Source of the DNA: a virus
Reading direction: 5' to 3' (one strand)
Virus record (IMG/VR): IMGVR_UViG_3300009154_004480
Location: 1-20,720 of that record
DNA: 20,720 nt
Shown: piece by piece, positions 3,878 to 20,720 of the stretch
Numbering within the stretch: position 1 is the first letter of the stretch
How the letters are laid out: each line of letters begins with the position of its first letter
The notes under the pieces: generated by a model
What the model was told of the DNA's origin: nothing
What the model saw: the letters and a program-made list of their open reading frames with translations, nothing else
Databases searched by the model: none
Position numbers and translations under genes: made by a program

Positions 3878-4672
3878 TTAGATCACAGTCACTGATGAGT
3901 CACCACTACCACTCTGGTCATTGGGGCCTGAGGCAGGGGGTTGCGTGTCATAGTGATGAGGTTCTGCTCTGTTCACTGACAGTGTCATATGTACCATTCT
4001 TAGGGGCTCGTCACCCACGTGTCTACTGATGCTGTGGGGAACCCAACTGGGTGCAAAAAACAAGTCACCTTCTTTGGGATTAAAATTGATAGCAGTGCTG
4101 GCATCGGAGGCCATTTGATGATCAGCTTCAGGCAAATTGATTTGTCTCTTGGCGGGTCTTGGATCGTGAAACACCAGCCTGCCTGAGTCTTCAGGCGTGT
4201 TCAAAAAGTAAAACCCCACCAGTTGACTGCCATAGCCATGCACATGTTCGTCATGCCCTGAATGTTTATGATGTTCCTGTAACCAAGCCTCTTGAAAAAT
4301 CACAGCAAGCTCCTGCATGTGATAGCCCTCTTCCACCAAGGACTGAAAACAATTGTAGCCCACAAAGTCAAAGAAATCCTTGAGTTCAGGTTCGTCTAAC
4401 AGGGTGTTGGTCTGACGAATGGGAAATACTGGATGTAATTCAGGAACTTCTTGACGATGTTGCTCCAGCCTCACTTCGGCGATTTCTCTCAGTTTGGGCA
4501 AGAACTGGGGCACGTTCACATGGTAAACTGGAGTGCAAAAATAATAGTATCTATTAATCTGTGGCTCATTGTTTTCCAAATTTCCTACTTGGACGTCCTT
4601 ACCAATCACAACGGATGTGGCATCCTCTGTTTTGACCTGCGGACTGCTTTTTTTAGATTTTGTTTTTTTCAT
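3878..4672 (-). CDS. Putative 2OG-Fe(II) dioxygenase (264 aa)
   Basis: Resembles the phage/bacterial 2OG-Fe(II) oxygenase group typified by TIGR02466. Visible signatures are a His-rich iron-site strand (H143 and H145 in EHVHGYGSQLVGFYFL), SGRLVFHDPR (163-172), EGDLFFAPSWVPHS with the likely distal iron ligand H213, and R225 in LRMVHMTLSVN as the probable 2-oxoglutarate carboxylate contact. Such enzymes couple decarboxylation of 2-oxoglutarate to hydroxylation of a protein, nucleic acid or small molecule; the substrate here is unknown. The usual HxD ligand pair is not obvious, so exact ligands are uncertain. The N-terminal 20 residues are Lys/Ser rich and the C-terminal 25 low-complexity. The gene follows GT9-like gene 2 by 20 nt with an AT-rich, SD-less gap. 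Confidence 0.75.
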   Translation of the reverse strand: MKKTKSKKSSPQVKTEDATSVVIGKDVQVGNLENNEPQINRYYYFCTPVYHVNVPQFLPKLREIAEVRLEQHRQEVPELHPVFPIRQTNTLLDEPELKDFFDFVGYNCFQSLVEEGYHMQELAVIFQEAWLQEHHKHSGHDEHVHGYGSQLVGFYFLNTPEDSGRLVFHDPRPAKRQINLPEADHQMASDASTAINFNPKEGDLFFAPSWVPHSISRHVGDEPLRMVHMTLSVNRAEPHHYDTQPPASGPNDQSGSGDSSVTVI

Positions 4673-6547: not shown

Positions 6548-9500
6548 ATGAATAAATACCAAATGTCCTATTACAATTTCACACCCATAGCAAACACAGC
6601 TATTCAATATCCTGAAAATTCAGAAATTTCTGCACTTGATACTGATATCATTATTAGAGTTTCGGTGATTTTGCGTAGACCCTTGGCACCTGGCGGGGTG
6701 ACCATGCAGGAATATGCTAGAAAAGTCATGAACAATCAAGCAGCCAAAATGTCTCGATTGGAATTTGCCCAATATTTTGGAGCCTCGTCCTCGGACATTG
6801 CTCAGGTATTGGACTTTGCTAATCATTTTGGCATGGAAGTGATTGAAACATCCAGAGACAGTGCTAGAATAAAATTACAAGCCCCAATTTCCATTTTTAA
6901 TCAAGCGTTCAATGTCATCATTGAACAAGTGGTAGTCGATGGAAAAACATGTTTTGGGCACACGCAGCCAATCAGTGTGCCTGAACAATTGTCAGAAATT
7001 ATAATTCATGTGTTGGGTCTTGACTCGTTGGTTGTAATGGAAACCAAAAATAAGCAAAGCTCATTGGTCGCCGATAATGTAGTTCCTGACCTTACTCCGA
7101 ACCCGCCGTCGCCAGTTCTTCTCACACCAATTCAAGTTGCAAAAGCCTACAATTTTCCCGAAGCCACAGGGCAGGACCAATGTATTGCCATTATCTCATT
7201 TGGTGGAGGATATACACAAGCCAACTTAGATGCAAGTTTTGCTGATGTGGGGTTATCAACACCAAACATAGTTGTGGCATACGGAACTTCGGACACCACA
7301 ATCGTGTCTTCATCCACATACATCTATAATCTAGAAAATATGTTGGATATTTTTACAATAGGCTGTTTGGTACCCAACGCCAAGATTGCATTATACTTTG
7401 ATGATACTACCAATATTAGTGATTCATGGGTGGACCCTTTTGTCGCAGCCATAGGTGATAATGTTAATCAACCTTCAGTGATCTCACTGACTTGGACTTT
7501 TCCAGAACCCTTTCTTGATTCCTTGCCTAATTTATCAAAGCTTTTCTATGATACAGTAATTGCACCAGCAGCTATCAAAGGCATAACAATTTGCTGTAGT
7601 GTGGGTGATTTTGGTGCGACTTCTGGTAAGGGTGCATTAGATAATAGATTAACCATTAGATTTCCAGCGGCAACTGACGGAGTTTTGGCAGTAGGCGGCA
7701 CGACGTTGGTGTTAAATCAGGATGATACTAGATATTCTGAAGAAGCATGGGTTGGCAGTGGCGGTGGCCTCAGTGAAAAAACTGGTATACCAACCTGGCA
7801 GCAAGGCTTGAGATATAAAGAGTATAATAGTGGTGAAGTTTTTAGTTTGTTCACACGGGGTATTCCTGACGTCACAGCCAATGCAAATCCATCATCCGGT
7901 TATACTTTTTATTTTTATAATAGCGATAGTCAGACAAATCTTCAGATCAGTGCGGGCGGCACCAGTGCGTCAACCCCGTTGGTTGCAGCCCTGATACTGA
8001 GATTGAATCAGATTTTTGACACTCGACTGGGGTTTGTCAATAAATTATTTTATCAAAATATAAGTGCATTTAATGATGTGACTATAGGCAATAATTATCG
8101 AAATGTTAATGGTTTTGTGGCCTCGTCTGGATGGGATGCAGTCAGTGGGTTGGGTAGTCCCAACGGCCAATTATTAGTCGACGCATTGTTAGAGATTCCT
8201 ATTGCTGGGAATTTGTCTGTTACAGTTGCTCAAAATAGTTCAGCGACCATAACACCATCAGTGTCAGTGGGAGTTACTGAAATTTCCATCACTAACCCGC
8301 CAGACCATGGTACTGCTACAGTAAGTGCAGGCAGATTTGATATAATTTACACACCAAGCAACGACTATTACGGCACTGACAGTTTTCAATATATTGTTAA
8401 AACTAGATTTGCTCAGTCAGCTCCAGCGTTGGTGTCTATAACAGTAGGAAGTTTGGCCCCAATAGCCAACACATTAACTGTCACTGTGGTGGCAAATTCT
8501 GAGGTTGCGGTAATATCACCAAATGTCACCAATTATTATAGCAGCATTGGGGTAGTAACAACAGAAAATACACAGGGTCGTGCATTAACAGATGGCGCTA
8601 GTATTTTTTATACACCTCTGACAAATTTCGTAGGCACAGACACTTTTCAATATTATGCAGTCAGTCCATCTGGTAATTCAAATAACGCTGATGTCATTGT
8701 AACAGTGCCCAAACCTGCTGCACCAATTGCTAAAAATATCAGCAAGTATGTGCTTTATAATTCTGTAAACAATATTATAAAGCCAAATATAGAAAATATA
8801 TACTCCAGTATCACAACACCAGAGTTTTCTGTCAATAGTGGAACAGTATCTGTCATTGACAACACCATTCTCTATTCTACACCTATTGATTATTCAGGCA
8901 ATGATCGATTTGATTACACTGCTATTGGACCAGGGGGAACTTCCACAGCCAGTGTCCGCATATCTATTTTACAATCTACTTCATCTAATATAGCTTTTAA
9001 TATCAGCCAATTTGTAAAACAAAATTCAAGAGACAATTTAATAAAGCTCAGTGATACAAACAGCATAGGAACATTAACAGTGGTTGTTAGAGCCTTGCAT
9101 GGCACATCCACCGTGACCAATAACTTGGTGTACTATACTCCTAATGTTAACTATGTGGGCTTTGATCATTTTGAATACTACATCTCTAATGCTGTTGGAG
9201 ACTCGAATGTAGCGTCAATTAATATTTCTGTGAATTCTTTGGACTATGTTCCACAAGTATTCAAATCCACAGCGTCAGTATTTCAGGGCAGCAGAAACAA
9301 CATTTTAAGACCATTAGTGAGTAACACAGTTACTGGAATAATTCTTAATTCAAAACCGTTGTTTGGAGTTGCATCAGCATCAACATCTACCATTACCTAC
9401 AGCCCAAATAGTAGATTTGTTGGAATAGATTATTTTTATTATTCTGCTTTTAATTCTGCGGGCATATCAAAGTCTGAAAGATTTTATGTTACAGTAAATC

Positions 9501-12500
9501 CGGTATTAACTCCTTATGCAAATCCAGTTAATGTCACAGTGGCGTATAATTCTGTAAACAACCCAATAACCCCTAGCGTAATAAATCCGTTCAACACCGC
9601 CACAGTGGTTACTTCGCCATTACATGGAGTAGCCACAGTATCAAATATTGTGATTTATTATACACCAACAACTGGATATTCAGGAACAGATACGTTTGAT
9701 TATTCAGTTGGAAATTTAAAAGGAGTATCTAACTCAGCTCCGGTAAATGTCACAGTATTACCCAGTGTTGGCATGCTGATATATCCGCCTAGCGGAAATT
9801 TACCTTCGGGCTCCACTGGCACTGTTTATGAACCAGTGACATTTTACGGCATCAATGGCACAGCTCCATTTAGTTCCTCTATATCTTCAGGGACGTTGCC
9901 TGAAGGGTTAACATTAGTCAATAATGTGCTGTCAGGCACTCCGGGACCACACACAGAAAGACTATATAGATTTTCAGTAACCTTACAAGACAGTAGCTTT
10001 CCTAATAATTTGATAGTAACTGGCACTTATGTACTGTTAATTTCTTCAGACGTAAACACCATAATAACTGCAATTAGTTTTAATGAACTGGAATCTGCCT
10101 CCACTAATTTAGTATCAGACACTTATGGGTCGTTCAATACGTCTGCACAAGTGATCCCTGGTAACTTAGTCACTGAATTGGGTTGGAATCAAATTTATAA
10201 TGACATGTTACGATGCTTTATTCATCAAAATGGTCCGTCATCAACAGACATGGGATTTGTCAGACCAACCACAGGCACCTATGTGTCTTTGGGGCAGCTC
10301 AAGGCCATGCTTGGCAGAATGGAGGTCTTGACCACCTCGTATCTTGATGCTCACCCAACTCAAATATTATTAGACACTGATTCCACGTTGTCCCTAACGA
10401 CCGCAACACTGGTGGACAAAACATTTAACGTGTCATATTCTTGGCAAAATCCAGAAGACCCGCTTTATTTTTTCAATCTTGGCGGTTCTTTGAAAGGCAC
10501 TATTTACAACTCCAGTACCAATGTTGAAATGTCAGCAATTTTCACATTGAGTAATTATGTTAATAATGTTCCTGCGTCTATATCTGGAACTAATGCAGTT
10601 ATTTCTGGAGTAGGAACTATTAATATAACCAACCTCGCCGGAGATCCTGGAGATACAGTAATTGCATCATTTGAAATATCTACCAGTAGCAATGTTATTC
10701 CTGCAGAGATGTCCTTTACTGCCACGTACTATTATTCCACTGATAAGACAGGTGGAGTTTTAGCTCCTAGGCCTTTGGTACAATTCACCGGAGGAGTAAT
10801 AACTGCTAGTGCAATTGGCAATGTGGTAGTGACTGGTAACGATCCTAAAATAATTTCAGTAAACATAACCAACGGCAGTGACGAAACAGTTACGATTCCA
10901 GTTCCAACAGAATTCGTAAATTCATTTAAAGTGTCTGAAAACACCAGTCCATTAACTGTGACTGCTCTAAATCTTCCACTGACTATTCCGCCAAATTCCA
11001 CAGGAATATTACAAATAAAATTACAGAATTTTACTGCGATAGGTGGCCGCTACCCCATTATTTTTAAAATTCGAGGCTATACGGGATCTGAACCAGATTT
11101 GGTATTATTAAACTCCATCGTATTGCGTGGCACATTGACTGTGAAATTTGGCATCACAGTTGACCCTTCTATAGTAACTGCCACAGTGACTGAACCTAGA
11201 AATTTTGATTTTAAAATAACTGGGTATGGCGGATATCTAAGTAGTGCAGAATTGGTGGGTGATAATTTTACCACCGTGAATACTGGCAGCGTATCTTATG
11301 TAAATTTTGATGGAGTGACGCCATTATTTTCCACATCAACATTATTGTTTGAAACGTTGTATGTGATCAATGGACCATATAGTGGATCGTTAATTGCTTA
11401 CGGCAGAACCGACGAAGATACACCCGAGACATCTTCAACATCAGTCACATTAGATTTGACTCTTGATGTTGAAGACAGAAACTTGGGATTCAATCCCAAT
11501 GTTGCAGGGTCGTGGATCAGTGCCCAGGCTCCGTATAATGCAGTTGTGGGATTTGATTACAGTATCTTTAATGGCCAAAGGTTTTTAACCACAGGATTTG
11601 GCAGCAACCCTGTACTTTCTAATGGCGGGTATCCAACATACAGTAATTTTAGTTTAAAATCTTTGGGAAGGCCAAAATATAATACAAATTTTAGGTATTT
11701 TAGAAGTTCAAATAGCGGCTGGGGAACTTTTTTAAAAACACACGGTATGAGGACCACATCACCAGCAAACACCACAGAATCAGGTAACAGTGTCTTCTTT
11801 GTTAGATATGGCGGATCGTTTCAATGGCAGTTTGCTGCGAGTAGTCAAGGCAGCCTCGTCATTGACGGTCAAACAGTTATCAATCAAGCCACGGACAGTA
11901 CAATTTCCTATCAAGGAAATATCACTTTAACTGCTGGCACCCACACAGTTGCTTGGTCCCACATTGGCGCTGTGGGATCTACAATTACCTATCTTGATGG
12001 TAAAAATAAAGATTATAATGCATGGAGCACCTTGGACGAGTGTTATTATAATTCGTGGTATGAAATCACTAGATTACGTATACTATTGGACTTCAACAAT
12101 ATTTCTTACACAATGGAGCCCAATATATATCCGCCTAAAGATGCAAAAATCTCTGGGAATGTTTTCACATATTCTGAAAATTTTACATCACCCTCTGGCG
12201 AAAAAGGCATGTTTTTGGTGTCTAATGATGGTTCTGGAAATTTAATAATTTCTGCCAACAGATTAACCACAGTCACTGCTGAGTCAAAAGAAATTGATAC
12301 TACCCTTAGGGTTGTGGAAAACGAACTATTTTATTACTATTCTGCTGTCTCCAATAGATATAACAACATAGGATCTGTAGTTAACTTTGATGGGTCAACA
12401 GAAACTCCAGTGTTTATTGGGTTTGATTCATCGGGCAATGTACTTACACGGCTGCTGCCAGAATTACTGGGACCGCCACAAGTTAGGCCAATCCCACGAT

Positions 12501-12622
12501 ATCCAGACCGGCGAATTAATATCTGGCCAATCATAGCCGCTGGCGTTGCCATATACTTACGGGTTACTGCGGTTGTGCCGGTGCCGATCCCGATCACACC
12601 GTTAGCTCCTTGGCCCTCATAA
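6548..12622 (+). CDS. Giant multidomain protein: sedolisin (S53) proprotease fused to adhesin-like beta domains (2024 aa)
   Basis: Residues about 20-175 match the pro-kumamolisin activation domain (LRRPL, YFGAS, HVLGLDSL). Residues about 195-545 are an S53 peptidase: E263 and D267 in the ExxxD motif, Ser473 in GGTSASTP, and the C-terminal Ca2+ site (D510 in FNDVTIGNN, D530 in SGWDAVSGLGSPNG). By ungapped alignment the oxyanion Asp after SxW is Pro321; the nearest Asp is D324. About 550-1073 holds six cadherin-like repeats of ~86 residues, each with YTP and Y/F-x-G-x-D-x-F-x-Y. A putative-Ig type domain follows (about 1075-1165), then a FNELESAS/HQNG module (about 1175-1240) seen in phage structural proteins, further beta domains, and a PA14-like segment (about 1755-1820, VIDGQTVI). 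There is no signal peptide. It is probably a virion surface adhesin or fibre. Start could also be the ATG at 6563. Confidence 0.8.
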   Translation: MNKYQMSYYNFTPIANTAIQYPENSEISALDTDIIIRVSVILRRPLAPGGVTMQEYARKVMNNQAAKMSRLEFAQYFGASSSDIAQVLDFANHFGMEVIETSRDSARIKLQAPISIFNQAFNVIIEQVVVDGKTCFGHTQPISVPEQLSEIIIHVLGLDSLVVMETKNKQSSLVADNVVPDLTPNPPSPVLLTPIQVAKAYNFPEATGQDQCIAIISFGGGYTQANLDASFADVGLSTPNIVVAYGTSDTTIVSSSTYIYNLENMLDIFTIGCLVPNAKIALYFDDTTNISDSWVDPFVAAIGDNVNQPSVISLTWTFPEPFLDSLPNLSKLFYDTVIAPAAIKGITICCSVGDFGATSGKGALDNRLTIRFPAATDGVLAVGGTTLVLNQDDTRYSEEAWVGSGGGLSEKTGIPTWQQGLRYKEYNSGEVFSLFTRGIPDVTANANPSSGYTFYFYNSDSQTNLQISAGGTSASTPLVAALILRLNQIFDTRLGFVNKLFYQNISAFNDVTIGNNYRNVNGFVASSGWDAVSGLGSPNGQLLVDALLEIPIAGNLSVTVAQNSSATITPSVSVGVTEISITNPPDHGTATVSAGRFDIIYTPSNDYYGTDSFQYIVKTRFAQSAPALVSITVGSLAPIANTLTVTVVANSEVAVISPNVTNYYSSIGVVTTENTQGRALTDGASIFYTPLTNFVGTDTFQYYAVSPSGNSNNADVIVTVPKPAAPIAKNISKYVLYNSVNNIIKPNIENIYSSITTPEFSVNSGTVSVIDNTILYSTPIDYSGNDRFDYTAIGPGGTSTASVRISILQSTSSNIAFNISQFVKQNSRDNLIKLSDTNSIGTLTVVVRALHGTSTVTNNLVYYTPNVNYVGFDHFEYYISNAVGDSNVASINISVNSLDYVPQVFKSTASVFQGSRNNILRPLVSNTVTGIILNSKPLFGVASASTSTITYSPNSRFVGIDYFYYSAFNSAGISKSERFYVTVNPVLTPYANPVNVTVAYNSVNNPITPSVINPFNTATVVTSPLHGVATVSNIVIYYTPTTGYSGTDTFDYSVGNLKGVSNSAPVNVTVLPSVGMLIYPPSGNLPSGSTGTVYEPVTFYGINGTAPFSSSISSGTLPEGLTLVNNVLSGTPGPHTERLYRFSVTLQDSSFPNNLIVTGTYVLLISSDVNTIITAISFNELESASTNLVSDTYGSFNTSAQVIPGNLVTELGWNQIYNDMLRCFIHQNGPSSTDMGFVRPTTGTYVSLGQLKAMLGRMEVLTTSYLDAHPTQILLDTDSTLSLTTATLVDKTFNVSYSWQNPEDPLYFFNLGGSLKGTIYNSSTNVEMSAIFTLSNYVNNVPASISGTNAVISGVGTINITNLAGDPGDTVIASFEISTSSNVIPAEMSFTATYYYSTDKTGGVLAPRPLVQFTGGVITASAIGNVVVTGNDPKIISVNITNGSDETVTIPVPTEFVNSFKVSENTSPLTVTALNLPLTIPPNSTGILQIKLQNFTAIGGRYPIIFKIRGYTGSEPDLVLLNSIVLRGTLTVKFGITVDPSIVTATVTEPRNFDFKITGYGGYLSSAELVGDNFTTVNTGSVSYVNFDGVTPLFSTSTLLFETLYVINGPYSGSLIAYGRTDEDTPETSSTSVTLDLTLDVEDRNLGFNPNVAGSWISAQAPYNAVVGFDYSIFNGQRFLTTGFGSNPVLSNGGYPTYSNFSLKSLGRPKYNTNFRYFRSSNSGWGTFLKTHGMRTTSPANTTESGNSVFFVRYGGSFQWQFAASSQGSLVIDGQTVINQATDSTISYQGNITLTAGTHTVAWSHIGAVGSTITYLDGKNKDYNAWSTLDECYYNSWYEITRLRILLDFNNISYTMEPNIYPPKDAKISGNVFTYSENFTSPSGEKGMFLVSNDGSGNLIISANRLTTVTAESKEIDTTLRVVENELFYYYSAVSNRYNNIGSVVNFDGSTETPVFIGFDSSGNVLTRLLPELLGPPQVRPIPRYPDRRINIWPIIAAGVAIYLRVTAVVPVPIPITPLAPWPS
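8198..9766 (+). repeat. Six tandem cadherin-like protein repeats inside the S53 fusion protein
   Basis: Six diverged ~86-residue repeats, recognised by YYGTDSFQY, FVGTDTFQY, YSGNDRFDY, YVGFDHFEY, FVGIDYFYY and YSGTDTFDY, each preceded about 10 residues earlier by a TP/SP turn and followed by a V-x-V/I strand. They are protein-level repeats with no obvious near-identical DNA, implying old duplication. Repeats of this Big/cadherin type usually form extended stalks. Confidence 0.75.
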
Positions 12623-13657: not shown

Positions 13658-13914
13658 TGAAAATATACGAACTACTTGATGAAAAGAAGATACCTCACCC
13701 CACACAAAGTCAGTGTGATGTTAGGGCCAGTCGCTTATCAAACGTTCGTTATGCACAGTGTGTGGGTTTAGGCATGCGTCCACATGACAGCGATCACACT
13801 GATGGCACTGGAAAACAAGGTGTCAAAGGCAGCGGGAAACCACAACGTGGAAGAAAGATCAAAAGTGAAAAGTATGGCGGCCCAAACAAATATTGGCCAG
13901 GTAGTAGGAATTAA
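13657..13914 (+). CDS. Small basic phage protein (85 aa), function unknown
   Basis: Opens MKIYELLDEKK, contains SQCDVRASRLSNVRYAQCVGLG, and ends in a Gly/Lys/Arg-rich tail (KQGVKGSGKPQRGRK, then KYGGPNKYWPGS). No membrane segment or signal peptide. The basic, Gly-rich C-terminal half suggests disorder or nucleic-acid binding, which is inference only. The two Cys residues (in SQC and AQC) are 15-16 apart with no zinc-site pattern. Its stop TAA at 13912-13914 is followed after 1 nt by the TTG start of the Fe-S carrier gene, and that gene's ribosome site lies inside this coding sequence, so the two are probably translationally coupled. Confidence 0.65.
   Translation: MKIYELLDEKKIPHPTQSQCDVRASRLSNVRYAQCVGLGMRPHDSDHTDGTGKQGVKGSGKPQRGRKIKSEKYGGPNKYWPGSRN
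13906..13909 (+). promoter_or_regulatory. Shine-Dalgarno AGGA that selects the TTG start of the Fe-S carrier gene
   Basis: AGGA(A) lies 6 nt upstream of the TTG at 13916 and overlaps the end of the preceding gene. No comparable site precedes the in-frame ATGs at 13784 or 13874. Confidence 0.7.
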
Positions 13915-13915
13915 T

Positions 13916-14239
13916 TTGATCACAGTCACAGAGTCTGCCAAACAAAGAATCAATGACATTCTATATGATCATGGCAATCCAAATTTGGCCATTCGAATAT
14001 CAGTCCAAGGCGGCGGCTGTTCGGGCTTTCAGTACAAGTTTGCTATAGAACACACTCCCAATGACGACGATTTGGCATTGGACACAGGTGCTTTCAAAAT
14101 ACTTATAGATTCTGCAAGTGTCATGTACATGGATGATGCTGTAATTGATTATCAAGAGTCTTTGATGAACAGTCAATTTGTAGTTCAAAATCCCAATGCT
14201 CAAAGTCAATGTGGTTGTGGTAGTTCATTCAGTGTTTGA
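13916..14239 (+). CDS. A-type iron-sulfur carrier (IscA/ErpA/SufA family, 107 aa)
   Basis: A-type carriers bind and pass Fe-S clusters to apoproteins. With the TTG start at 13916 the protein begins (M)ITVTESAKQRI and is 107 residues long, with Cys35 (VQGGGCSGF), Cys99 and Cys101 (QCGCGSSFSV). The length and all three cysteine positions match E. coli IscA, which strongly supports this start over upstream ATGs (13784, 13874) that would overlap the previous gene. The three-cysteine cluster site is intact, so the protein is probably functional. HesB/IscA-like genes are known auxiliary genes in some marine phages. It follows the 85-aa gene by 1 nt. Its stop codon lies in the -35 box of the ligase promoter. 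The IscA versus ErpA versus SufA subfamily cannot be decided by eye. Confidence 0.9.
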   Translation: MITVTESAKQRINDILYDHGNPNLAIRISVQGGGCSGFQYKFAIEHTPNDDDLALDTGAFKILIDSASVMYMDDAVIDYQESLMNSQFVVQNPNAQSQCGCGSSFSV

Positions 14240-16551: not shown

Positions 16552-18861
16552 ATGACGTTATACTATGTAAACACCGGAAGTGGCCCAAACAGCCAGGATG
16601 GAGACTCTCTACGAACCGCATTTAATAAAATCAATGCTAATTTTTCCCAAATAAACACTGGTTCTTTGGGAGCAGTTCTAGTTCAAAGTCCATCAGTGCC
16701 CCAAGGATATGGACCAAACACACTCTGGTATGACACTGAGTCTGGTAGGACTTTTGTTTTTTATAATGGATCATGGATAGACGCCAACCCCAGCAGTAAT
16801 CAAAATCAAAGCACAGTGGCTGTGGGGTTGTACGATCCTGAAACTGAAGAATATTCCAACACAGTGGAAAATGTGTCAAAAATTAATTTTGATGTTTTGG
16901 CAGATTTCAGTGTAACGGATCAGGGCAGTGGCAATGTATTGGTTGGGATGAACTCTACATTTAAGTACATACAGATCGCAGGGCAGGAAACACTAACTGC
17001 ACAAGGAGTTGACACATTGACTCTGGTGGCTGGCACTGGTACTCAATTGATAACTTCCAATGCTGGATTAAAGAACCAACAAACTATAACATTTATTTCC
17101 ACTGGTTCAGGCTCAGGATCAGGTAATGCCACATTCCCACCGTCAAGTGTGCCAGGGTTCCTATACACGGACGGTGTAGATGTCATTGAATGGAGGCAAC
17201 CTGAACTCAGTTCATTAAAAAATGGAGAGTTTGTCTTTTCAGTGACTGAGTTGGGCTCAATATCATTACCAGATGGAACTGAACAGCAAACCGCTTATAA
17301 AATTCCTGTTCCTGACGGTACTAATAGTGCTCACTATGTATTAATTAGGGGAACTACAGGAGTTCTGCAGTATAACAACGGTTTTTCCTATAATCCCAGT
17401 ACTGGCGAACTAGGCAAACTAAAAAGAATTTTATTCAATGACAATACAATACAGACCACTGCTTGGTTAGGGTCCACTGCCACATTGTTTAGCTCAGTGT
17501 CTGGTGCTGGACGATCATCTTTGACATTGACTACTACTACTTTAAGACTTTCCACAGGAACCATAACATTTCCAGATTTGTCAGTGCAAAGAACTGCATT
17601 TCTTGGATATATTGACTATGGTGACATCAGAAATATCCCAATAGTGACTACATCATCGCTGAACAATAATGGATTTACTGCAAAGTTGTCAACATCAGGC
17701 GAATTTACAATTCCTAATAAGTTGACTACGAAATATCTAACAACTGATGTATTTTCAATTGTGTCAACACAGACAGGCGGAGTATTGTCGTCAGTAGGTA
17801 CTACCACTAACGTTTCCATACAGACGTTATCAACCCAAACGTCTTATAAGTGGACATTCAATAATGATGGCACAATAACTTTCCCTGATAATTCCATACA
17901 ACAAAGTGCGGGAAGAAATATCTATGATGCCATCCTTTCAGGAACCAAATATCTTTCTGTGTTATCCAGCGGTATTGTTAAGTTTCCTGATGGCACTGAT
18001 CAATCAACTGCTTTTACAGGCAAGGCTGTGTCTTTACTAAATGGTGTACATGCTCTACGTCCAGTGGCAGTTCCTACAGATGCCAATTTTGGGTCTCCAG
18101 GAGATCAAGTGGGCGACATTGCATTTGATCAAACGTTTCTTTACTATTGTTCAGCACCTTATGGGTACAAAACTTATACCACAGGAACAGTCAGTTCTGG
18201 TAACTCTGTAAATTTTATAAGAATACCGCAAGTTAGTACCAATTTTATACAGCCCCAACCAGGTTGGACTTTTCAACAAGTTGGTACTCCTGAAATTTAC
18301 ACTTTAACTAGTGCGGCAACTTCGGCAGTGTTTGGTATTGGTCCTGCTGTATGGGTCTTGACTTCAAGTACAGCCTCCCTTAGTTACACCACTGGAACAA
18401 TTTTTTCAGTGTTTAATAACTCAATACCACAATCTAATTGGATCAAAACTGCCGTAACTGGTCAAGGCCTAATCACTAACATAAGTGAATTTGTTGATCA
18501 GAATCAGTATGTTACCAATGGTATTATTCTTGTTCAATGGAAATCAGTTCGAATAGAATTGGGAGCTGGAACTGAAATATTCGAAGACAATATTCGTTTG
18601 GCGGTTTCCTCATTATCTGGAAAACTTTCAAATTTGATATACAATATGACCAGTAATTATAATGGTCAAACTAACATAATATCTGGAACATGGATAGAAT
18701 TAACGGCAAATTTAGAATTAATTGGGCCCACGTCTAAAATACCTGGGGATAGTGCAACATTAATAATTAATTCAGTTGACGAAAACTTTTGTTATAGAAT
18801 AACTGCAATGACTGGTAGGAATTTTTTAAATAATTTTATCAGCATTGAACAACTACTTTGA
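16552..18861 (+). CDS. Tail-fibre-like structural protein 1 (769 aa)
   Basis: The N-terminus (TGSGPNSQDGDSLRTAFNKI, then NANFSQIN) is a module found at the start of many marine phage fibre or baseplate-associated proteins as I remember them. It is followed by YGPNTLWYDTESGRTFVFYNG. The middle contains five copies of a short strand motif of the form xFPDGTxQxTA (SLPDGTEQQTA, LFNDNTIQTTA, TFPDLSVQRTA, TFPDNSIQQSA, KFPDGTDQSTA), spaced by 40-80 residues. A later PGDQVGDIAFDQTFLYYC segment (about 517-534) is another phage-structural signature. Ser/Thr/Gly-rich, beta-predicted, no signal peptide. Probably a trimeric fibre or decoration subunit, by inference. Start ATG 16552 has AAGGA 6 nt upstream. 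Ends 30 nt before the second fibre gene. Confidence 0.8.
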   Translation: MTLYYVNTGSGPNSQDGDSLRTAFNKINANFSQINTGSLGAVLVQSPSVPQGYGPNTLWYDTESGRTFVFYNGSWIDANPSSNQNQSTVAVGLYDPETEEYSNTVENVSKINFDVLADFSVTDQGSGNVLVGMNSTFKYIQIAGQETLTAQGVDTLTLVAGTGTQLITSNAGLKNQQTITFISTGSGSGSGNATFPPSSVPGFLYTDGVDVIEWRQPELSSLKNGEFVFSVTELGSISLPDGTEQQTAYKIPVPDGTNSAHYVLIRGTTGVLQYNNGFSYNPSTGELGKLKRILFNDNTIQTTAWLGSTATLFSSVSGAGRSSLTLTTTTLRLSTGTITFPDLSVQRTAFLGYIDYGDIRNIPIVTTSSLNNNGFTAKLSTSGEFTIPNKLTTKYLTTDVFSIVSTQTGGVLSSVGTTTNVSIQTLSTQTSYKWTFNNDGTITFPDNSIQQSAGRNIYDAILSGTKYLSVLSSGIVKFPDGTDQSTAFTGKAVSLLNGVHALRPVAVPTDANFGSPGDQVGDIAFDQTFLYYCSAPYGYKTYTTGTVSSGNSVNFIRIPQVSTNFIQPQPGWTFQQVGTPEIYTLTSAATSAVFGIGPAVWVLTSSTASLSYTTGTIFSVFNNSIPQSNWIKTAVTGQGLITNISEFVDQNQYVTNGIILVQWKSVRIELGAGTEIFEDNIRLAVSSLSGKLSNLIYNMTSNYNGQTNIISGTWIELTANLELIGPTSKIPGDSATLIINSVDENFCYRITAMTGRNFLNNFISIEQLL

Positions 18862-18864
18862 TAG

Positions 18865-18872
18865 AATAAATA
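18865..18872 (+). promoter_or_regulatory. Late-type promoter motif AATAAATA before tail-fibre-like gene 2
   Basis: Lies just after the stop of fibre gene 1 and 19 nt before ATG 18892, with AGGA at 18881-18884. Confidence 0.5.
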
Positions 18873-18891
18873 TTATATCTAGGACACCAAT

Positions 18892-20720
18892 ATGGCAGCA
18901 TTAAAATTTCCGTTAAATCCCGTTAGAGGTTCATTATATACCGGAAATAATGGATTAACATACGTATTTGACGGAATAAAATGGGTGGGTTCATCAGTTA
19001 TTGCCACCAGCACAGTAACAAACGCATTAATCAATTCCAATTATGTAGTGCAGGTAACTGACAATGGTGATTTACAATTGCCCTATTATGCAGTGCCGGC
19101 CAGCACCGGAACATTGGGACAGGTGCTGCAATGGACCTATGTCAGTGGAACAAACACACTGATATGGGCAGATGTAAGAAGTCAAAATGCACCAAGAGAG
19201 GGAACAACTGGATCTTTCTTAATCAGTAGTGTTGGCAGTTGGGTGGCCAGCATCAATACTGACAGTAGCTTTACTATTCCAGGTGCGCTACGTATGGGGG
19301 ACGGCACAGTCCAATATTCTGCCTATCCTGGCCCGCCAAGAACACTGACCAATTCCCTAAGCATACTTGACTCCGCACAGTCAACTAGCACACAGTCTGG
19401 AGCTTTGATAGTACGCGGCGGCGTTGGTATAGGTGGTAATGGATTTTTTGGCGGATCGTTAACCGCAACAGCGATAGACATCACAAAAACAGGCATTGGC
19501 ACACAGACTGCTGCGGTTTTTTCAAGCGGCCAAGATCAAATAGTAATTCAATTTAATAGCAGTACTGGAAGAAACAGCATTGTTAGCTTTAACAACACAG
19601 CCAGTACATATTCACGGTTGACTGTGGCGGCTTCAACCATTACATTTTCCACGTTGGATTCACCCTCAACGATGGTGATCAGTAGTGGCACAGTTAGTAT
19701 GGTGGGAACTTTGGGAGTATCAGGTGCTGCAACTATAGGTGGTGGACTAAACATTGGGGCTGCTAGTTTTATTTCTGGAGTTCCCATACTGACCAGTGCT
19801 ACTGTAAAACAATTTGCCTTGGTTGGTGTTAGAGCAGGTACAGATACTGCAATTGCGGTCAATACCAATACCAGTGTAGTGACGGTGTGGAATACCAGCA
19901 CACTGCAATCAATTACTAGAAGAGGTGGTACTACTATCTATGCAATGTCAATACTTAACGCTACACCAAGTGACGACGCCACAACTGGCGCATTGGTGGT
20001 TGACGGTGGGGTGGGCATTGGTGGAGATTTAAATGTTGACGGCACGGTCAACGCCGTAGAAATATTTGTCAATGGCAGCGCAGTGGTCACTACTGCGACT
20101 GCGGGTGGAGTCAACACTGTGAATGGTTCATCTGGCACAGTGACCATATCTGCAGGCACAGACACTGTAATTTTCACCTCTGGTACTAATATCACTATTT
20201 CAAATATCAGTACACTGCAATCAATCACCAATAGGGGAAGTACTACTACTAGTACTATTTCAATTAACAACGCCACAACCAGCACCAGCACTGCCACAGG
20301 TGCATTAGTGGTTACCGGGGGAGTTGGAGTAGGTGGCAACTTGTATGTTAGAGGAAACATATTCCAAAATGGAGTACAAGTTGGCACTGGATCAAGCACT
20401 GGCACAACTGGCACATTTTTAATATCAAATGAAACTCAATCAGTCTCTACTAACACAGGTGCATTAGTGGTTACCGGGGGAGTTGGAGTAGGTGGCAACT
20501 TGTATGTTAGAGGAAACATATTCCAAAATGGAGTACAAGTTGGCACTGGTTCTAGTACTGGAACAACCAGTACATTTTTAATATCAAATGAAACTCAATC
20601 AGTCTCTACTAACACAGGTGCATTAGTGGTTGTGGGCGGTGCAGGCATTGGTGGCAACTTGTATGTTAGAGGAAACATATTCCAAAATGGAGTACAAGTT
20701 GGCACTGGATCAAGCACTGG
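18892..20720 (+). CDS. Tail-fibre-like structural protein 2, 3' partial (at least 609 aa)
   Basis: Open reading frame from ATG 18892 to the window end with no stop. The N-terminus (MAALKFPLNPVRGSLYTG, then TYVFDGIKWVG) is typical of marine phage fibre proteins with a FPxNPxxGxxYTG opening. One copy of the fibre-1 motif occurs (GDGTVQYSA). The rest is built from modules with GAL-x-V-x-GGVGIGG-x-L-x-V-x-G, five copies in view, from about residue 165 on, the last three within 159-bp DNA repeats. A second repeated phrase, STLQSIT-x-RG, occurs twice. Composition is Thr/Ser/Gly/Val rich, beta-structured, no Cys noted, no signal peptide. Likely an elongated fibre with a repetitive shaft; the receptor-binding tip would be downstream. 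Two long minus-strand frames inside it are shadows of the repeats. Confidence 0.8.
   Translation, partial: MAALKFPLNPVRGSLYTGNNGLTYVFDGIKWVGSSVIATSTVTNALINSNYVVQVTDNGDLQLPYYAVPASTGTLGQVLQWTYVSGTNTLIWADVRSQNAPREGTTGSFLISSVGSWVASINTDSSFTIPGALRMGDGTVQYSAYPGPPRTLTNSLSILDSAQSTSTQSGALIVRGGVGIGGNGFFGGSLTATAIDITKTGIGTQTAAVFSSGQDQIVIQFNSSTGRNSIVSFNNTASTYSRLTVAASTITFSTLDSPSTMVISSGTVSMVGTLGVSGAATIGGGLNIGAASFISGVPILTSATVKQFALVGVRAGTDTAIAVNTNTSVVTVWNTSTLQSITRRGGTTIYAMSILNATPSDDATTGALVVDGGVGIGGDLNVDGTVNAVEIFVNGSAVVTTATAGGVNTVNGSSGTVTISAGTDTVIFTSGTNITISNISTLQSITNRGSTTTSTISINNATTSTSTATGALVVTGGVGVGGNLYVRGNIFQNGVQVGTGSSTGTTGTFLISNETQSVSTNTGALVVTGGVGVGGNLYVRGNIFQNGVQVGTGSSTGTTSTFLISNETQSVSTNTGALVVVGGAGIGGNLYVRGNIFQNGVQVGTGSST
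20296..20720 (+). repeat. 159-bp tandem repeats coding 53-aa fibre modules
   Basis: Units start at 20296, 20455 and 20614 (each opening ACAGGTGCATTAGTGGTT), a period of 159 bp or 53 codons; the third is cut by the window end. The NLYVRGNIFQNGVQVGTG block is identical at DNA level in all three. Differences are clustered: GTTGTGGGCGGTGCAGGC in unit 3 versus GTTACCGGGGGAGTTGG in units 1-2, and TCTAGTACTGGAACAACC in unit 2 versus TCAAGCACTGGCACAACT in unit 1. Confidence 0.9.

Follow-up and report, generated by a model that had tools for sequence, protein, structure and literature searches.

The window, that is, the whole stretch of DNA analysed here, is a virus record of 20,720 bases. It contains a single open frame of 2024 codons, with no internal stops, that encodes a sedolisin-type (S53) protease followed by a long adhesin-like extension. 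The features of the window that bear on this protein are as follows.

1-2382, + strand: S8 subtilase of the cyanophage baseplate type (ORF1), 5' end off the contig (Pfam S8, E 3.5e-22)
2287-2370, + strand: C-terminal tag of the S8 ORF1, KVNYKKRPSSGPTFPRTRQGPR, common to stand-alone phage S53 proteins
6548-12622, + strand: S53-headed adhesin ORF
6629-7027, + strand: pro-kumamolisin activation domain, residues 28-160 (Pfam PF09286; aligned with the 1t1e prodomain)
7028-7108, + strand: linker from prodomain to enzyme, residues 161-187, expected processing site at about residue 187/188 (1t1e alignment)
7109-8191, + strand: S53 catalytic domain, residues 188-548 (phmmer against 1t1e; VIA-align)
8198-9757, + strand: six Ig-like (Big_9/cadherin-like) repeats, residues 551-1070 (Pfam PF17963, E 5.8e-23; iterated repeat HMM)
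9758-12619, + strand: distal adhesin region of about 950 residues, parts of which (residues 1654-1690 and 1834-1969) are conserved in the syntenic contig L067
12716-13294, + strand: cell wall hydrolase/endolysin, syntenic (Pfam PF07486, E 4.8e-25; 57% to L067)
16552-20718, + strand: probable tail structural genes, one at 16552-18861 and another from 18892 to the contig end (phrog_8859; relation to L032)

Residues 27-548 of the adhesin ORF aligned end to end with intact pro-kumamolisin (1t1e) at E 7.3e-66 (phmmer), and bacterial S53 proteins matched the same span with 28-35% identity, which confirms the S53 similarity proposed in an earlier note on this DNA. The prodomain, also described there as intact, matched PF09286 at E 2.2e-12, with 47.9 bits against a Pfam cut-off of 23.5. 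The mature N-terminus of kumamolisin pairs with residue 188, and residues 162-186 of the linker have a pLDDT below 50 in the structural model; a likely processing site lies at about residues 187-190, in agreement with the predicted cut near residue 190. The six Ig-like repeats that follow the enzyme are about 82 residues each. No hydrophobic N-terminal signal was found (the maximum 19-residue hydropathy near the N-terminus is 1.1), and it is unusual, as had been remarked, for such an enzyme to be fused to a phage adhesin that lacks a signal peptide. The last 439 residues matched no Pfam family above its cut-off, no relatives of the distal region were found in IMG/VR or among PDB sequences, and a model of residues 1635-2024, built from two sequences, reached a pLDDT of 30, with no fold assigned. 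The protein ends (residues 1990-2024, window 12515-12619) in a short, hydrophobic, proline-rich tail, INIWPIIAAGVAIYLRVTAVVPVPIPITPLAPWPS; other S53 fusions end without a similar tail.

In kumamolisin, catalysis relies on E78, D82 and S278, and Asp164 contributes its side chain to the oxyanion hole (PMC5935664). Residue conservation was scored in 86 sequences, consisting of 79 viral loci, the window protein, five plasmid-borne bacterial S53 proteins and kumamolisin, and the corresponding positions in the window are listed below.

7334-7336, + strand: catalytic Glu263 (kumamolisin Glu78), Glu in 86/86
7346-7348, + strand: catalytic Asp267 (kumamolisin Asp82), Asp in 86/86
7508-7510, + strand: Pro321, in the loop near W316 (kumamolisin Trp129), a column with 16 different residues
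7607-7609, + strand: oxyanion Asp354 (kumamolisin Asp164), motif SVGDFG, Asp in 86/86
7964-7966, + strand: nucleophile Ser473 (kumamolisin Ser278), Ser in 85/86, the remaining sequence (L033) being a truncated contig
8075-8137, + strand: Ca2+ site with ligand side chains Asp510 and Asp530 (alignment; TPP1 ligands from PMC2914745)

The results show that the E263/D267 pair and Ser473 are intact, as the earlier note had stated. The Ca2+ ligands of TPP1 (PMC2914745) correspond to D510, V511, S526, G528 and D530 of the window protein, and with D510, G528 and D530 in place the Ca2+ site is likewise intact. The same note had also claimed that the conserved oxyanion Asp is replaced by Pro321 in SLTWTFPEP. 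This segment pairs with kumamolisin SISWGGPED, which is the Trp129 loop (W129-E133); the Trp is kept as W316, and Pro321 occupies a freely variable position of that loop. Counting the mature kumamolisin numbering through the 1t1e alignment locates Asp164 in AAAGDSG, which is paired with SVGDFG of the window protein and so gives Asp354. An Asp in the oxyanion site was the outcome that had been named as contradicting the claim, and it is what the kumamolisin alignment places there; together with its conservation across the 86 sequences, this led us to reject the loss of the oxyanion residue. The suggestions that the enzyme is inactive, uses D324 as a substitute or retains self-cleavage only were all built on the misassigned residue. 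The pro-enzyme described in that note is thus real and intact, and its altered residue is a misassignment.

A model of residues 1-640, computed from 48 viral and bacterial sequences, had a pLDDT of 85 and a pTM of 0.87. It superimposed on 1t1e with a Z-score of 53.0 over 499 residues at 2.9 A (VIA-align), whereas S8 subtilisins reached only Z 25-27. All residues needed by a working S53 enzyme are present, since E263, D267, D354 and S473 are kept. Judged from the alignment, one real departure from kumamolisin is at Glu32, which corresponds to Ser217; Ser occurs at that position in 37 of the 86 sequences. Because of this change the pH profile of the enzyme may be shifted. Taken together, the alignment and the predicted fold indicate that the window protein is a complete S53 pro-enzyme that is probably active.

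The earlier note treated an S53 enzyme in a phage as a single oddity. Three different S53 queries found no S53 protein in 50,697 GenBank phage records, and an alignment query found S53 in 101 IMG/VR contigs, which shows that the family is widespread in uncultivated phages; 79 of these loci were examined. A single-sequence search of IMG/VR with the window protein gave no confirmed relative, because its patterns were specific to that sequence. In a tree that included 85 bacterial S53 proteins (closest matches only), the window protein falls in a clade of 62 viral and 0 bacterial sequences with a support of 0.993 (FastTree, midpoint root). Its sister is L014, followed by L031, L037 and L021, all of which are S53 heads with long C-terminal extensions. 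Viral S53 sequences outside the clade intermingle with bacterial ones, and there may be cellular DNA or recent transfers among them. The prodomain-free S53 proteins form one group inside the viral clade (support 1.0), a topology consistent with a single loss of the prodomain within it.

The prodomain-free phage enzymes (L036, L038-L060, L062-L068 and others) retain all catalytic residues, which poses the question of how folding, and inactivity in the cell, are achieved without the usual helper of an S53 enzyme. One locus, L059 (9911-14107), encodes an S53-headed protein of 1398 residues with a weak Hint/Vint-like hit at the C-terminus (E 0.005) and another weak, PA14-like hit, which suggest that the end of this protein may be self-splicing or self-cleaving.

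Among the neighbours of viral S53 genes are genes for virion structural proteins, baseplate connectors and collagen-like tail fibres. Collagen-like tail fibre genes lie directly downstream of the S53 genes of L014 and L031, and L037 also adjoins a tail fibre gene. At 28 S53 loci, encoding 20 different S53 proteins, the S53 gene is immediately preceded by a homologue (best E about 1e-67) of the gene that stands just before the S8 protease gene in Kyanoviridae, and this homologue ends 1-3 bases before the S53 gene; the prodomain is present in 19 of these loci and missing in 9. In S-CREM1, S-H38 and Sf-FR1, the Kyanoviridae homologue of this upstream gene bears the annotation 'baseplate wedge subunit and tail pin'. 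The S8 and S53 enzymes are thus encoded at an equivalent genomic position, behind the same tail-pin gene. The adhesin ORF of the window has upstream genes on the opposite strand, with no tail-pin homologue directly upstream of the kind present in the 28 other loci. Its direct neighbours are non-tail genes, and the tail-type ORFs at 16552-20718 and the S8 ORF1 are each about 4 kb away. The family matched in this tail region, phrog_8859, is also matched by a baseplate-connector-like gene in L016, and the ORF from 18892 to the contig end has a relative in the gene that precedes S53 in L032 (E 4.6e-15).

The S8 ORF1 of the window is 30-40% identical to Kyanoviridae subtilisin-like proteases. By eye its Asp/His/Ser motifs are apparently intact; it belongs to the same fold clan as S53 and lies upstream of the adhesin. 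Stand-alone phage S53 proteins often carry a terminal peptide like FPKQNYGFRPTSGQTYPRKTTGAR, and the same C-terminal peptide, RPxSGxxFPR, is found on most S53 proteins of the 28 slot loci and on several S8 proteases. In its strict form, RPxSGxx[FY]PR, the tag occurs in ORF1 and in 23 of 79 S53 ORFs, and it is absent from the S53 adhesin of the window. A degenerate IMG/VR scan for GFRPxxGxxYPR returned 57 contigs (not dereplicated): 45 were S53 C-termini, always with the motif 17-21 residues before the end, two were S53-like ends at contig edges and 10 were other frames. None of the 85 bacterial S53 proteins has the tag. When an HMM of the S53 tail was run against 4,105 other proteins, the top three were S8 proteases, each matched at its extreme C-terminus (S-CREM1, E 0.01; window ORF1, 0.023; Sf-FR1, 0.17); so short a motif yields weak individual E-values, and the evidence lies in the ranking and the position. 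A form of the tag is present in 24 of the 28 slot loci, and every strict-tag S53 has the upstream tail-pin gene. We infer that the protease docks to the baseplate through this tag. The window S8 protease gave short matches only in the other S53 records, two of them to the C-terminal tag, and the S8 protease is not named in the accessible text of the cyanophage proteomics papers. On prodomain-free phage S53 proteins (L038-L042, L044, L048, L050, L051, L053, L054, L064-L066, L075, L076 and L084), a second conserved tail, IKTxxNTWSYVxNVxVKT...W, replaces the RPxSG tag and is possibly a second docking module.

The window protein was compared with the closest known systems. It resembles kumamolisin (MEROPS S53) in its co-linear residues 27-548, Glu-Asp-Asp-Ser set, Ca2+ site and predicted fold, and differs from it in being about 33% identical, fused to a 1470-residue adhesin, devoid of a signal peptide and changed at Glu32. 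Stand-alone phage S53 proteins share the upstream tail-pin gene and the tag with the Kyanoviridae S8 proteases (S-CREM1, S-H38 and Sf-FR1), although their catalytic domain is S53 rather than S8; the window adhesin is an untagged fusion, whereas ORF1 is of the S8 kind. The distal region of the sister protein L014 is related to those of the S8-headed gp329 of Agrobacterium jumbo phage Atu_ph07 and of the S8 peptidase of Sinorhizobium phage Phosso (E 1e-9). These two proteins also combine a protease head with a long distal region, but their head is S8, and no relation to them was detected for the distal region of the window protein itself. In the accessible part of the Atu_ph07 study, the virion proteins identified by mass spectrometry cluster in CDS 284-329 (PMC6102473), and the cluster boundary at CDS 329 suggests that gp329 itself was detected in virions. 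Giant-virus S53 proteins (Homavirus, E 3e-39; Barrevirus, 8e-39) are also viral and similar in predicted fold; unlike the phage proteins, they come from viruses that infect eukaryotes and have no phage tail context.

Gene for gene, the window corresponds to the syntenic 56-kb contig L067, whose genes are also those of L068: 4696 (52%), 5713 (57%), the endolysin (57%), 13203 (57%), 13784 (43%), the DNA ligase (74%) and 15654 (71%). At the position of the adhesin ORF, L067 encodes an S53-headed protein of 1072 residues whose S53 domain is 32% identical, has no prodomain and branches elsewhere in the tree. Two segments of the distal region recur in it, residues 1654-1690 at 57% and residues 1834-1969 at 29%. 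The comparison suggests that at one locus the S53 head was exchanged, or diverged much faster than its surroundings.

We consider it probable, with some reserve, that the ORF at 6548-12622 encodes a tail-associated, virion-borne adhesin whose intact zymogen protease head trims a protein of the host surface, and that S8 and S53 heads are interchangeable in this function. Against this stand the lack of the tag in the window protein and its position outside the baseplate slot. The evidence for the window protein is its sequence, fold prediction, context and phylogeny, from which we infer its virion location, activation and substrate. Synthesis and assembly of the zymogen would take place in the host cytoplasm, at a neutral pH that, together with the prodomain, would keep the enzyme silent. 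As part of the virion it would be released by lysis, and no signal peptide would be needed because lysis carries the adhesin outside. Self-cleavage at about residue 187/188 would free the enzyme at low pH, in acid water or on contact with the cell surface. The protease would then trim a surface protein of the next host, to which the stalk and distal region would keep the phage attached; S8 and S53 heads would be interchangeable solutions for the trimming of surface proteins in phage tails.

Other roles were weighed against this one. The S53 enzyme might instead mature the virion: it would cut itself and adjacent tail proteins while the phage assembles or afterwards, and would have no host substrate. 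We regard this as unlikely, as sedolisins usually require acid, whereas phage assembly occurs in the neutral cytoplasm; moreover, a slot filled by either S8 or S53 and the long Ig-like and distal extensions better suit a surface tool than a conserved assembly step. A maturation role would nevertheless fit the intact zymogen with its self-processing linker and the location of S53 genes in tail clusters, and phage peptidases are often assembly enzymes (PMC7824862). A diffusible enzyme that is freed at lysis, stays unattached to the virion and digests debris or decoy receptors is less likely still: the ORF has no recognised attachment domain and no C-terminal tag, but it does have a repeat stalk and a distal adhesin-like region, its nearest relatives adjoin tail fibre genes, and a related protein of Atu_ph07 with an S8 head is the last member of a gene cluster supported by virion mass spectrometry. 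The main reading of the earlier note, an inactive pseudo-enzyme retained as a binding or structural domain, is very improbable. It could draw on the Glu32 to Ser217 change, which is only a second-shell one, whereas all four catalytic and oxyanion residues are conserved throughout the viral set, the prodomain is retained and the predicted fold matches pro-kumamolisin.

More broadly, we tentatively propose that tailed phages have an exchangeable tail or baseplate slot that is filled by S8 or S53 proteases and uses a portable C-terminal docking peptide, and that S53 has diversified in phages, with one prodomain loss and with some members, such as that of the window, heading long adhesins that digest host surface protein at entry. 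The open-access literature searched, on sedolisin or kumamolisin in phages or viruses and on S53 with tail fibres, gave no report of a phage S53. Within that literature, a tail-region S53 protease that recurs in uncultivated phages and is interchangeable with S8 appears to be undescribed. Most of the well-known enzymes of phage tails act on sugars or peptidoglycan. A slot for tail-linked proteases that recurs, with S8 or S53 enzymes of one fold and a shared C-terminal peptide, would point to protein layers as a barrier that many aquatic phages have to open. From slot and tag together, the upstream baseplate/tail-pin protein is predicted to be the docking partner, and the tag offers a means of finding tail-linked proteases.

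Two probable auxiliary metabolic genes also lie in the window: one for Fe-S cluster biosynthesis at 13784-14239 (+ strand; Pfam Fe-S_biosyn, E 6.6e-21) and one for a 2OG-Fe(II) oxygenase at 3878-4672 (- strand).
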